Positions 59,100-64,000 of a stretch of 64,000 nucleotides of DNA are shown piece by piece (the first letter of the stretch is position 1; each line of letters begins with the position of its first letter). The stretch spans positions 1 to 64,000 of the forward strand of contig JAKLGA010000014.1 of the NCBI GenBank assembly GCA_022710975.1, given 5' to 3'. The DNA comes from Myxococcota bacterium. Its GTDB lineage: Bacteria > Myxococcota > B64-G9. Made by a program: the position numbers and the translations under genes. The notes beneath the pieces were generated by a model. The model had not been told where the DNA came from. It did no database searches and saw only the letters and a list, made by a program, of their open reading frames with translations.

Positions 59100-60346
59100 G
59101 TGCCCTCCTTGGCCTGGCCCAGGCTGGCGCGCATCTGCTCGAGGCGCTCCATGAGCGCCTCGCACTCCTCCTCGTCCAGCACGTCCATGGCCTGAAACAC
59201 CGCGTAGTCGTACACGTCCCGCAGGGCCTCCAGGGCCAGCTCTCGCGCGCGCCCGGCGTCCAGGCCGCGGGCGTTCTCGGCCAGGCGCTCCACGTCCAGC
59301 CGCCCGTCGGCGTCGAAGCCCACCCCGACGAACACCGGCCGGTGGCGCGCGGGCGGGGACTGGAGGTACTGGGACAGGCGGGCCTCGCAGCCCGGGGCGT
59401 GGGCCACCAGGGTCTGGTGGATGCGCCGCAGCATGCGGGCCTGGCCCGACAGCACGTCGGCCAGCGCGCCCACCTCGCTCCGCTCGGCCCGGGTCCGGTC
59501 GCGCTGCTCGGCCAGCCCCTGACCGATCAGGTGGGCCAGCGCCCGCAGCGCCTCCACCTCGCCCAGGTGGCTGGCCGCCAGGATCTCGCCCACGCTGCGG
59601 CGCCCGTCGGCCAGCGCCAGCAGGTGGCGCTCGTGGGCCCCCAGGGGCACGTCCACCAGCGCCGGCCGCGCCACGAGCAGCGCCTGGCGATCGGCGAACT
59701 GCACCTCGAGGCGGTCCAGCTCCTGCAGCCGCTTCACGCCCTCGCGGATGAGCTCGTGGGTGGTCACCTCCAGGCGCACCGCGTTCTTGATCCCGGTCGC
59801 CCCCTCGAAGAACAGGAACTCGCCGCGCCGGATGGCGAAGGAGCCCTGCACGATGTCCACGACCTGTTCTTTCAGACAGTCGTAGAGCTCCCGCGGGGTC
59901 AGCAGGCCCTCCTCGACCAGCAGGGCCCCGAAGCGCTTGCCCGGACGCACCGCCTCCTGGACGCGGGAGAGCTGCTCCAGGCTCAGGCGGCCTCGGCGCC
60001 ACATCACCTCTCCCAAGCGGTCGTCGGCCACGGTCGAGGAGGCGTGGATGACCTCGCCGCCGCCCAGGGCGATGGTCTTTCGCGCCTGCGGCAGGAGGAG
60101 GCTCAGCAGCCCGTCCTTGCGCATCGACGAGATCAGCGCCAGCACCTCCGCCACGCTGAACAGGCGCAGATCGCCGTACAGCATCGGCCGCGGCCGCTGG
60201 CCGGGTTGGGGCTCGGCGCCCAGCAGCAGGTCGTCGCCCAGGGGCTCCAGGCGCAGCAGCCCGGCCTGGAGCCCGGCCAGCCGCCCGAGCCGGCCGGCCG
60301 GGATGACCAGCGCGCCCTGCGCGTCGAAGCGCACCTCGTCAGCCAT
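59096..60346 (-). CDS. DUF4388 (PatA N-terminal-like) protein
   Basis: The 416-aa soluble protein has an N-terminal segment and then the DUF4388/PATAN pattern LYGDLRLFSVAEVLALISSM with RKDGLLSLL (about residues 56-85). DRLGEVMWRRGRLSLEQL and FGALLVEEGLLTPRELYDCL follow (about 108-160); the latter two look like MshEN-type helical repeats. The C-terminal half carries a winged-helix-like stretch (ADGRRSVGEILAASHLGEVE). DUF4388 proteins are common in Myxococcota and are thought to act in two-component or gliding-related signalling; no catalytic motif is seen. Its ATG overlaps ispG by 8 bases, so it is coupled to housekeeping genes. Confidence 0.75.
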   Translation of the reverse strand: MADEVRFDAQGALVIPAGRLGRLAGLQAGLLRLEPLGDDLLLGAEPQPGQRPRPMLYGDLRLFSVAEVLALISSMRKDGLLSLLLPQARKTIALGGGEVIHASSTVADDRLGEVMWRRGRLSLEQLSRVQEAVRPGKRFGALLVEEGLLTPRELYDCLKEQVVDIVQGSFAIRRGEFLFFEGATGIKNAVRLEVTTHELIREGVKRLQELDRLEVQFADRQALLVARPALVDVPLGAHERHLLALADGRRSVGEILAASHLGEVEALRALAHLIGQGLAEQRDRTRAERSEVGALADVLSGQARMLRRIHQTLVAHAPGCEARLSQYLQSPPARHRPVFVGVGFDADGRLDVERLAENARGLDAGRARELALEALRDVYDYAVFQAMDVLDEEECEALMERLEQMRASLGQAKEGT

Positions 60347-61418
60347 GCTCCACCCCTTCCCGCGCCGCGCGGGCGCGCTCCCCGAGGTAGGCGCGCAGGG
60401 CCTCCTCCAGCTCGGCGTTCGGCCACGGGGGCCCCAGCACCTGCCCCGCGGCGAACAGCAGGCCCTTGCCGCCCGCGCCGAAGGCGATCCCGCAGTCGGC
60501 CGCCCGCGCCTCGCCCGGGCCGTTCACCTCGCAGCCCATCACCGCCACGGTGAGCGGCAGCCCCAGGGACTCCAGCAGCGCCTCCACGCGCTCGGCCACG
60601 GGCGAGAGATCGACGCGGGTCCGCCCGCAGGTCGGGCAGGAGACCACCTGGGGTCCGCGCCGCAGGCCCAGGGCCTGCAGCAGCAGGCGAGCCGCGCGCA
60701 CCTCGAGGGCGGGCGGCGCGGACAGCGAGACGCGCACCGTCTCGCCGATCCCGTCGCGCAGCAGCGGGGCCAGCCCCGCGGCCGAGCGCACGCTGCCGGC
60801 CAGCGGGGGACCGGCCTCGGTCACCCCGAGGTGCAGGGGCACGTCCGAGGCGGCCGCGAAACGCCGGTTGGCGGCGTCGAGCTCGGCCAGGTGGAAGGAC
60901 TTCATCGAGACCTTGATCCGCGGGTGCCCGAGCGCCTCGATCTCCGACACCCAGGTGAGCGCCGTCTCCACCATGCGCTCGGCCGAGGCCTCCACGGCCC
61001 GGCCGCCCTGGCGCGGCATGGAGCCCGAGTTCACCCCCACCCGGATGGGGATGCCGCGCTCCGCGGCGGCTGCCACCACCGCCCGCAGCGCGTCCTTGCC
61101 GCCCAGGTTGCCAGGGTTCACCCGCAGTCCGTCCGCGCCCTGGCGCGCCGCCTCGACCGCCAGGCGGTGATCGAAGTGTACGTCCGCGACGATGGGCAGC
61201 CCGCCCTCGGCGCGCACGCGCGGGATGGTGCGGGCGGCCGCGAGATCGGGCACGGCGATGCGGCCGATATCGCAGCCCGCGGCGCGCGCCTCGCGCAGCT
61301 GCCGCACGATGGTGTCCACGTCGGCCGGGTCGGCCTTGGCCATGCACTGGATGCTCACGGGCGCCCCGCCGCCGATCCGGACCGCGCCGACCTGGATGCT
61401 GCGGGTGAGCCTCGACAT
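60339..61418 (-). CDS. ispG: 4-hydroxy-3-methylbut-2-en-1-yl diphosphate synthase (IspG/GcpE)
   Basis: The 359-aa iron-sulphur enzyme carries out the penultimate step of the MEP isoprenoid pathway. The TIM-barrel domain shows VGAVRIGGGAPVSIQCMAKA, IVADVHFDHRLAVEAA and LRVNPGNLGGKDAL. The cluster-binding cysteines are in SCPTCGRTRVDL (about residues 265-268) and MGCEVNGPGEAR (about 299). Length is normal for the short bacterial form. The ATG at 61418 lies about one base from the predicted transcript start, which favours it over an ATG at 61427 and implies a leaderless message. Confidence 0.96.
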   Translation of the reverse strand: MSRLTRSIQVGAVRIGGGAPVSIQCMAKADPADVDTIVRQLREARAAGCDIGRIAVPDLAAARTIPRVRAEGGLPIVADVHFDHRLAVEAARQGADGLRVNPGNLGGKDALRAVVAAAAERGIPIRVGVNSGSMPRQGGRAVEASAERMVETALTWVSEIEALGHPRIKVSMKSFHLAELDAANRRFAAASDVPLHLGVTEAGPPLAGSVRSAAGLAPLLRDGIGETVRVSLSAPPALEVRAARLLLQALGLRRGPQVVSCPTCGRTRVDLSPVAERVEALLESLGLPLTVAVMGCEVNGPGEARAADCGIAFGAGGKGLLFAAGQVLGPPWPNAELEEALRAYLGERARAAREGVEHG

Positions 61419-61425
61419 CCCGCGC

Positions 61426-61454
61426 ATCTTAGAGGTGGGCGGCGCGGGGGTCAA
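61426..61454 (-). promoter_or_regulatory. Promoter of the ispG operon (leaderless)
   Basis: Minus-strand TTGACC (61454-61449) and TAAGAT (61431-61426) are 17 bases apart. The start site falls at 61419-61418, directly on the ispG ATG. The nearest CRP-like dyad (61465-61480) is centred about 54 bases upstream of this start. Confidence 0.7.
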
Positions 61455-61464
61455 CGCCCGCCGG

Positions 61465-61480
61465 CGTGAGCCGGCTCACG
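61465..61480. promoter_or_regulatory. CRP/FNR-like operator 1
   Basis: CGTGAGCCGGCTCACG is a perfect 16-base palindrome. It matches the CRP-type pattern TGTGA-N6-TCACA at the inner eight positions. It is the first of three similar dyads spaced 32 and 31 bases apart in the ispG-protease intergenic region. Confidence 0.55.
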
Positions 61481-61496
61481 TCCGCGGCCTGCGGGG

Positions 61497-61512
61497 TGTG
61501 ACGGGGATCAAA
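61497..61512. promoter_or_regulatory. CRP/FNR-like operator 2
   Basis: TGTGACGGGGATCAAA has the full left half-site TGTGA and a right half TCAAA, one base away from the CRP consensus TCACA, with the proper six-base spacer. It lies three helical turns from operators 1 and 3. Confidence 0.5.
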
Positions 61513-61527
61513 CCCGGGGGCCAGGAG

Positions 61528-61543
61528 TGTGACGCGCGTCATG
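61528..61543. promoter_or_regulatory. CRP/FNR-like operator 3
   Basis: TGTGACGCGCGTCATG has left half TGTGA and right half TCATG with a six-base spacer; its core TGACGCGCGTCA (61530-61541) is a perfect palindrome. It is the dyad nearest the protease gene, whose start codon is 120 bases downstream. The rest of that leader (61544-61662) shows no gene, only a small GGGGC/GCCCC hairpin (61578-61593). Confidence 0.5.
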
Positions 61544-61662
61544 ATCGGCCCTGTCCATCGGGCGATTCGCGCGCAAGGGGGCTGAATTGCCCCGCCGCCT
61601 CCGTCGTCCGTGGCGCAGCGCGAACGACGCGCGCCGCAGTGCAACCGAACGGAGGCTTGGCC

Positions 61663-64000
61663 ATGAGGACCGTCCACCCCACCACCCATCACCGTGTCCA
61701 TCAGGCGCTCGGCGCCTTCCTCGCGCTCAGGTTGAGCGTCGCGCTCCTGGGCTGCGGCCCCGGCGAGCCGCCCGGGCTCGACGGTCACGAGGAGTCGTTC
61801 CTGTCCCTGTCCGGGACGCGCACCGAGGGCGAGAGTTGGCTGGGCGCGAGCCAGGTGGCGGCCATCACGCTGCCGGCCAACTTCTCCACCGGCCACCGCT
61901 GGGAGGTCGAGGCGATCGAGACCGGACGGCTGCGGCTGCTCGGCTCGGTGTTCAGCCAGGACGACTCGGGCTTGCTCGGCGCGCCCGGCCGGCAGACCTT
62001 CTACCTGGCGGGCGTGAGGCCGGGCCGCGAGCAGGTGCGGCTGGCCTACCGCCCGGCCGGATCCGGGCGGGAGCCGCTCGAGCGCAGCGTGCTGTCCTTC
62101 CGGGTCGCGGGGGCCTACCAGGGCAAGTTCACCGTCCCGCCGGAGGAGGACGCGCCCCCCCGCCGGGAGCCGGCCCCCGACAGGAGCCTGGGTCTGCCGG
62201 CGAGCTTCAGCTGGTGCGATCAGGGCGCGTGCAGCCCGGTCCGCGATCAGGGCTCGTGCGGCAGCTGCTGGGCCTTCGCCACGGCGGCCCCGATGGAGAG
62301 CGCCATCCTCATCCACAACGGGCTGAGCAAGGATCTGGCCGAGCAGTACCTGGTCTCCTGCAACGCCTCGGGCTGGGGCTGCGGCGGCGGCTGGTGGGGC
62401 CACGACTACCACACCGACCTCATGGTCTCCGGCGAGGCGGCGGCCGGGGCGGTGCTGGAGGCGGACTTCCCCTACACGGCCACCGACCAGGCCTGCAACC
62501 CGCCGCACCCGAAGACCGACAAGCTCCAGTCCTGGAGCTACGTCGGCGACGCCAGCTCCGTGCCCTCCACCGACCAGCTCAAGCAGGCCATCTTCGAGCA
62601 CGGGCCGATCTCGGTCGCGGTGTGCGTCAACGGCGAGTTCCAGAGCTACGCGGGCGGCATATTCACCGGCCCGAGCTGCACCGGCGTCAACCACGGGGTG
62701 ACCCTGGTCGGCTGGGACGACGCCCAGGGCGCCTGGATCATGAAGAACTCCTGGGGCGCCTCCTGGGGCGAGCAGGGCTACATGCGCATCGGCTACGGCG
62801 TGAGCCAGATCGGCTACGCCGCGGCCTACGTGACGCTGGCCGACACCCTGAACCCCGTGGCCGCTTTCGGCGTCGTCGGCCAGGGCCGCAGCCTGCAGTT
62901 CAGCGACGTGAGCCAGCCCTCCTCGGGCCAGGCCCTGGCGGCCTGGGCCTGGGACTTCGGCGACGGCGTGGGCTCCGCGGAGCCGAACCCGGCCCACACC
63001 TACGCGCAGGACGGCAGCTACCTGGTGACCCTGAACGTGACCGACACGGCCGGCAAGACGGCCACGCTCACCCGGGAGGTGGCCGTGCCCTACGTGCCCC
63101 CGTACTGCGCGTCGCGCGGCGGCAACGCGACCGAGGAGTGGGTGAGCCAGGTGGACATCGGCCCCTTCAGCCACGCCTCGGGCGGCCAGGGCTACTCGGA
63201 CTTCACCGCGCTGGTGGCCGAGCTCGCGCCGGGCACCCACCCGGTGATCCTGCAGCCGAGCTTCGTGGGCGGGCCGTGGTCGGAGCACGTCGCCCTGTGG
63301 GTCGATCTCGACCGCGACGGCGACTTCGAGGACAGCGGCGAGCTGCTCCTGTCCATGTCCGGCACGAGCACCATGACCGGCTCGCTCACCCTGCCCGCAG
63401 GCGAGCTGACCACGCGGATGCGCATCTCCATGAAGTTCTCCGCGGCCCCTGGGCCGTGCGAGGTGTTCGCCTACGGCGAGGTCGAGGACTACACCCTGAG
63501 GATCGCGGCGCCGCCCGCGCCCCCAGCGCTGGTGCTGAACGAGCTGCTGGCCGATCCGCCGGCCGGCTTCGACGCGAACCGGGACGGCGTGGCGAACACC
63601 ACCCAGGACGAGTTCATCGAGCTGGTGAACGCGGGCGCGGCGCCGCTGGACCTGTCCGGGGCCAGCCTGTCGGACGCCATCGGCGTGCGCTTCACCTTCC
63701 CCGAGGGCGCGGTGCTCGAGCCGGGCGGGGTGCTGGTCGTCTTCGGCGGCGGCGCCCCCGATCTCCCGGGCGTCGCCACCCTGGCCGCCTCGGGCGCGGG
63801 CCTGGCGCTCAACAACGGCGGGGACACCCTCACCCTCGCGACCGCGGACGGCAGCGTGCTCGCGGCGCTGACCTACGGCACCGAGGGCGGCCGCGACCAG
63901 TCCCTGGTGCGCGCCGTGGACGGGGACGACGACGCCGCGTTCGTGCTGCATGGGAGCCTGTCCGCGCTGCCCGCCTCCCCGGGCGTCCGCAGCGACGGCA
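61663..64000 (+). CDS. Secreted papain-like (C1A) protease with PKD, GEVED and lamin-tail domains (partial)
   Basis: The gene is open to the right edge: 779 codons without a stop. ATG at 61663 follows GGAGG. A signal segment ends in LLGC (about residue 31), a possible lipobox. After an N-terminal region comes a papain-fold domain with Gln196 and Cys202 (DQGSCGSCWAFA), His344 (GVNHGVTLVGW) and Asn362 (MKNSWGASWGE), so the catalytic set is complete. A PKD-like domain (FGDGVGSAEPNPAHTY) follows near residues 405-475. Next is a GEVED domain (VDLDRDGDFEDSGELLL, YGEVEDYTLRI; about 480-610). Then a lamin-tail domain begins at LVLNELLADPP and contains DEFIELVNAGAAPLDLSGA (about 620-730). It is probably a surface or secreted cysteine protease; a sorting tail may lie beyond the edge. 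Confidence 0.9.
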   Translation, partial: MRTVHPTTHHRVHQALGAFLALRLSVALLGCGPGEPPGLDGHEESFLSLSGTRTEGESWLGASQVAAITLPANFSTGHRWEVEAIETGRLRLLGSVFSQDDSGLLGAPGRQTFYLAGVRPGREQVRLAYRPAGSGREPLERSVLSFRVAGAYQGKFTVPPEEDAPPRREPAPDRSLGLPASFSWCDQGACSPVRDQGSCGSCWAFATAAPMESAILIHNGLSKDLAEQYLVSCNASGWGCGGGWWGHDYHTDLMVSGEAAAGAVLEADFPYTATDQACNPPHPKTDKLQSWSYVGDASSVPSTDQLKQAIFEHGPISVAVCVNGEFQSYAGGIFTGPSCTGVNHGVTLVGWDDAQGAWIMKNSWGASWGEQGYMRIGYGVSQIGYAAAYVTLADTLNPVAAFGVVGQGRSLQFSDVSQPSSGQALAAWAWDFGDGVGSAEPNPAHTYAQDGSYLVTLNVTDTAGKTATLTREVAVPYVPPYCASRGGNATEEWVSQVDIGPFSHASGGQGYSDFTALVAELAPGTHPVILQPSFVGGPWSEHVALWVDLDRDGDFEDSGELLLSMSGTSTMTGSLTLPAGELTTRMRISMKFSAAPGPCEVFAYGEVEDYTLRIAAPPAPPALVLNELLADPPAGFDANRDGVANTTQDEFIELVNAGAAPLDLSGASLSDAIGVRFTFPEGAVLEPGGVLVVFGGGAPDLPGVATLAASGAGLALNNGGDTLTLATADGSVLAALTYGTEGGRDQSLVRAVDGDDDAAFVLHGSLSALPASPGVRSDG

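Follow-up and report, generated by a model that had tools for sequence, protein, structure and literature searches.

A Myxococcota bacterium carries three helically phased CRP-type dyads ahead of a predicted lipoprotein protease gene, and we consider it fairly likely that they form a tandem operator array for the CRP orthologue of this genome, which would activate the protease as at class III CRP promoters. The dyads are found in a window of 64,000 nucleotides, the whole stretch of DNA that was analyzed (contig JAKLGA010000014.1, positions 1 to 64,000). The direct basis for this proposal consists of the dyads, their phasing, their rarity, the presence of a CRP whose recognition helix suits such sites, and one similarly phased array at a protease homologue.

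The sequences, centers and spacing of the three dyads, as well as the palindromic nature of the first, are as given in the preliminary description of this DNA (Table 1). Dyad 1 is a perfect 16-bp palindrome. When compared to TGTGA/TCACA, dyads 1, 2 and 3 match at 8, 9 and 8 of 10 positions, respectively. The dyad symmetry of TGTGA-N6-TCACA is present and the TGA/TCA core is kept in all three, while dyads 2 and 3 each have one degenerate half that is far from consensus. Center-to-center distances are 32 and 31 bp, placing the dyads in helical phase. A search for structured RNA in the array region gave a single sub-threshold match (E 0.43), and no description of this protease array was found in the literature (open-licence papers only).

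Table 1. Positions of the array and its flanking features in the window, and of the arrays in genus g27 (given as genome:contig:positions).
Feature	Position	Strand	Sequence	Remarks
Dyad 1	61465..61480	.	CGTGAGCCGGCTCACG	center 61472.5, 190.5 bp before protease ATG
Dyad 2	61497..61512	.	TGTGACGGGGATCAAA	center 61504.5, 158.5 bp before protease ATG
Dyad 3	61528..61543	.	TGTGACGCGCGTCATG	center 61535.5, 127.5 bp before protease ATG
ispG (GcpE)	60339..61418	-		start ATG 61418; predicted leaderless; divergent neighbor, probably not the target
ispG promoter	61426..61454	-	TTGACC-N17-TAAGAT	7 nt to ispG start codon; separate from array
Protease ribosome-binding site	61651..61655	+	GGAGG	from sequence; 7 nt before ATG 61663
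Protease gene	61663..64000	+		frame continues past window end; probable array target
g27 arrays	G027:C15:120177-120320; G124:C2:4851466-4851610; G125:C1:9596557-9596701; G126:C13:90672-90816			

The protease, a predicted lipoprotein, has a lipoprotein-type N-terminus (LSVALLGC) and contains an N-terminal chagasin-like I42 domain followed by papain-family C1, PKD, GEVED and lamin-tail domains. The chagasin-like inhibitor domain, which precedes the C1 domain, may act as a built-in inhibitor. The frame, which stays open past the window, contains a further stretch there (G000:C6:64030-64515, G000 being the genome of the window) that is 92% identical to the lamin-tail domain. A consensus scan gave no sigma-70-like promoter for the protease, and distances from the array are given to its start codon.

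The rarity of the array was assessed against a dyad background sample of 464 kb of this genome, made up of the window and a further 400 kb of sampled sequence. Eight dyads in this sample have TGA/TCA cores and score at least 8/10, three of which are those of the array, and no second pair of dyads scoring at least 7 occurs within 60 bp in the 464 kb. The array was the sole match when the whole genome was searched for the tandem pattern. The genome scan for TGTGA-N6-TCA proposed in the preliminary description returned 29 strand matches, representing 26 distinct sites, in the 7.13 Mb genome, compared to approximately 34 expected from base composition. Single dyads of this type are no commoner than chance, and heuristic gene calls place several of the 26 sites inside coding sequence and several others ahead of genes. 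While both the chance-level frequency of single dyads and their occurrence inside coding DNA would favor weak palindromes having clustered by chance in GC-rich DNA, the phased cluster itself is exceptional: the dyad rate in the 464 kb predicts approximately 6e-7 phased triples per genome, two or more dyads never appeared in 20,000 first-order Markov resamplings of the 243-bp region, and the array is seen again at a homologous gene of a second genus. The three-dyad cluster is not due to chance, a reading to which we give almost no weight. As a separate observation, GTGA-N6-TCAC occurs at 84 places in the whole genome, compared to 23 for the reversed control (coding and intergenic DNA counted together), and a single perfect copy lies between two divergent lipoprotein-like genes (G000:C14:10905-10918).

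Conservation of the dyads among relatives, to which the preliminary description had looked, was observed in part. Upstream of a protease homologue from another genus of the same family (G008:C94), there are two strong dyads, AGTGACATCGATCACA and CGTGACGACGCTCACG, and one weak dyad, GGTAAAACCGGTCAAA, that are 30 and 31 bp apart and centered at -232.5, -202.5 and -171.5 from the ATG (see Table 1 for the corresponding distances of -190.5, -158.5 and -127.5 in the window). Dyads are absent upstream of the G004 and G003 homologues and of the paralogue G008:C82. Because the proteases of G000, G004 and G008:C94 are about equally distant and form a trichotomy, loss of the array is indistinguishable from two gains. 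The divergent neighbor of the array is ispG in the genome of the window and a lipoprotein gene in G008; as these flanking genes differ, the neighbor common to both arrays is the protease. The G008 array could serve either of its neighbors, since the ATG of the lipoprotein gene is 45–106 bp from its dyads. Judging from this sequence comparison, the most likely target of the array is the protease and not ispG.

The preliminary description had suggested that ispG is perhaps also under control of the array, and this link is not supported: those ispG orthologues whose upstream sequence is usable lack the dyads, relatives carry ispG and the protease on separate contigs, and ispG has a promoter of its own that is close to consensus, relative to which site 1 lies at about -54. 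We regard control of ispG, or of both divergent genes, by the same CRP as distinctly unlikely. In its favor, the array sits in the intergenic region shared by the two genes, with dyad 1 just 10 bp upstream of the ispG -35 hexamer. Against it, no such dyads precede the ispG orthologues where upstream sequence is usable (the upstream regions in G004 and G007 are shortened by contig ends), and the sigma-70-like promoter of ispG, which was also recovered by the consensus scan, is placed alike in four relatives. Furthermore, the center of dyad 1 is approximately 54 bp before the predicted ispG transcription start, away from the usual CRP activation positions of -61.5 (class I) and -41.5 (class II). 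At a sigma-28 promoter, however, a CRP site at -49.5 is functional (PMC2859248). In addition, ispG seems to be leaderless in five genera, with exactly 7 nt from the -10 hexamer to the start codon (window 61416-61454; G002, G003, G005 and G006).

Among the five HTH_Crp_2 matches in the genome, two of which are above the family cut-off, the strongest is the CRP orthologue (G000:C24:401640-402320; ORF L125:1045-1728), with the recognition helix SSRETVSRVL. This protein keeps the residues Arg180, Glu181 and Arg185 of E. coli CRP. In E. coli CRP, Arg180 contacts G2 of the half-site T1G2T3G4A5, while Glu181 and Arg185 read its G4:C4 pair (PMC11253593). The RETVSR motif does not vary among CRP orthologues within the family, nor across most of the phylum as sampled. 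Also conserved in the CRP orthologue is the cyclic-nucleotide phosphate-binding cassette (FGEMALLDDKPRSAN; FGEM(A/S)LLD..xRSAN in orthologues), and 17 class III nucleotidyl cyclase (Guanylate_cyc) domains are encoded in the genome. These features suggest that the CRP-type regulator probably senses cyclic AMP, and that the protease may be linked to a second messenger. The nearest solved structures to the CRP orthologue are actinobacterial and E. coli CRPs of the CRP/FNR family, for example 3d0s, 3i54 and 4byy, which we take to be the CRPs of Mycobacterium tuberculosis (Rv3676) and Corynebacterium glutamicum (GlxR).

A different dimeric regulator that recognizes a similar palindrome, either another CRP/FNR member or a protein of an unrelated helix-turn-helix family, might instead bind the dyads. 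Dyads 2 and 3 match imperfectly, and other Myxococcota arrays have altered cores, GTGAC-N4-GTCAC or GTGAA-N4-TTCAC, that are probably for other factors. However, just one CRP-type HTH in the genome both matches strongly and bears RETVSR, which the next two candidates lack, and the MrpC consensus is unmatched in the intergenic region; we thus judge a different regulator to be unlikely. Taken together, the matching CRP and the similarly phased array at the G008:C94 homologue lend support to the earlier claim that a CRP-family regulator acts on the protease.

We propose that the array would be occupied by as many as three CRP dimers, probably carrying a cyclic nucleotide, all on the same side of the helix and ahead of the protease promoter. 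In the manner of class III CRP promoters, they would recruit RNA polymerase, such that transcription of the protease would respond steeply to the CRP signal. Points against this model are the homologues and the paralogue that lack dyads, the second neighbor of the G008 array, the negative promoter scan for the protease, and the degenerate halves of dyads 2 and 3. Alternatively, the array could repress the protease through oligomerization or looping of CRP dimers, with release when the signal falls. We consider this highly unlikely, as distal tandem CRP sites are mostly activating and all three dyads, located 127–190 bp before the protease start codon, overlap no identifiable protease promoter. 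Nonetheless, CRP-family proteins can repress from distal sites, as exemplified by the repression of dmxB by MrpC from a site at least 112 bp upstream of its starts (PMC8844925). The array offers a specific testable target, comprising one CRP, one operator array and one surface protease, as well as a search pattern for a candidate regulon.

Similarly spaced dyads occur more widely, with at least two GTGA-N6-TCAC dyads at this spacing found in 32 of 195 Myxococcota genomes; the reversed control pattern was almost unmatched. Some arrays have other cores, namely GTGAC-N4-GTCAC in genus g42 and GTGAA-N4-TTCAC in genus g27, and some lie within coding DNA. The altered-core arrays of g42 and g27 probably bind other factors. 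In g27, arrays have up to five dyads that are 31–34 bp apart, many with the GTGAA-N4-TTCAC core. In g42, GTGAC-N4-GTCAC palindromes are paired at approximately 32–33 bp (L236, L238, L239 and L244, with similar places in G108, G114, G115, G116 and G119). The palindromes at the four loci read (L236, L238, L239 and L244) are beside a gene for a shared KVRLKLWVLSGP-type protein, and at three of the four they precede a gene starting M(F/I)SS(V/I)SSRSNPSS.

Arrays face lipoprotein genes in G008, G018, G030 (two arrays), G075 and one of the g27 group. Enrichment near secreted proteins, a check raised in the preliminary description for secreted hydrolase genes, was evaluated with a lipobox detector that was loosened after its first version missed several array-facing proteins judged to be lipoproteins by eye. 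With this second detector, 7 of 18 array-facing genes were lipobox-positive compared to 12.9% of 163 sampled genes (p ~0.005), an enrichment that is suggestive only because the detector had been retuned once the proteins were inspected, gene calls came from a GC-frame heuristic, array groups were hand-chosen and the baseline derives from one genome. That Myxococcota repeatedly use a regulatory module of two to five helically phased CRP-type dyads, preferentially placed before genes for surface lipoproteins or secreted hydrolases, is a tentative and rather doubtful generalization; if true, cyclic-nucleotide signaling would switch the cell surface cooperatively through such arrays.

The literature that we found on CRP-family regulation in Myxococcota mostly concerns MrpC of Myxococcus xanthus, a CRP-family protein that is likewise from this phylum and has several binding sites at promoters, for which no ligand is reported (PMC8844925) and whose consensus is TGTYN8RAC (PMC4320627). 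This consensus has no match in 61380-61662. Rv3676 and GlxR, taken to be the closest solved relatives of the CRP orthologue, belong to another phylum and have the recognition helix RETVNK in place of RETVSR. Both bind TGTGA-N6-TCACA-type sites. Class III CRP promoters are by definition those in which multiple CRP dyads, arranged in tandem and helically phased, precede a single gene and, like the array, those of E. coli have two or more TGTGA-N6-TCACA dyads in this arrangement. Unlike the E. coli examples, to which it is likened by site layout, the array has three sites, lies in a GC-rich Myxococcota genome, and includes two dyads with one half far from consensus. The array is most likely a tandem, class III-like CRP promoter, a kind of promoter that is already known.
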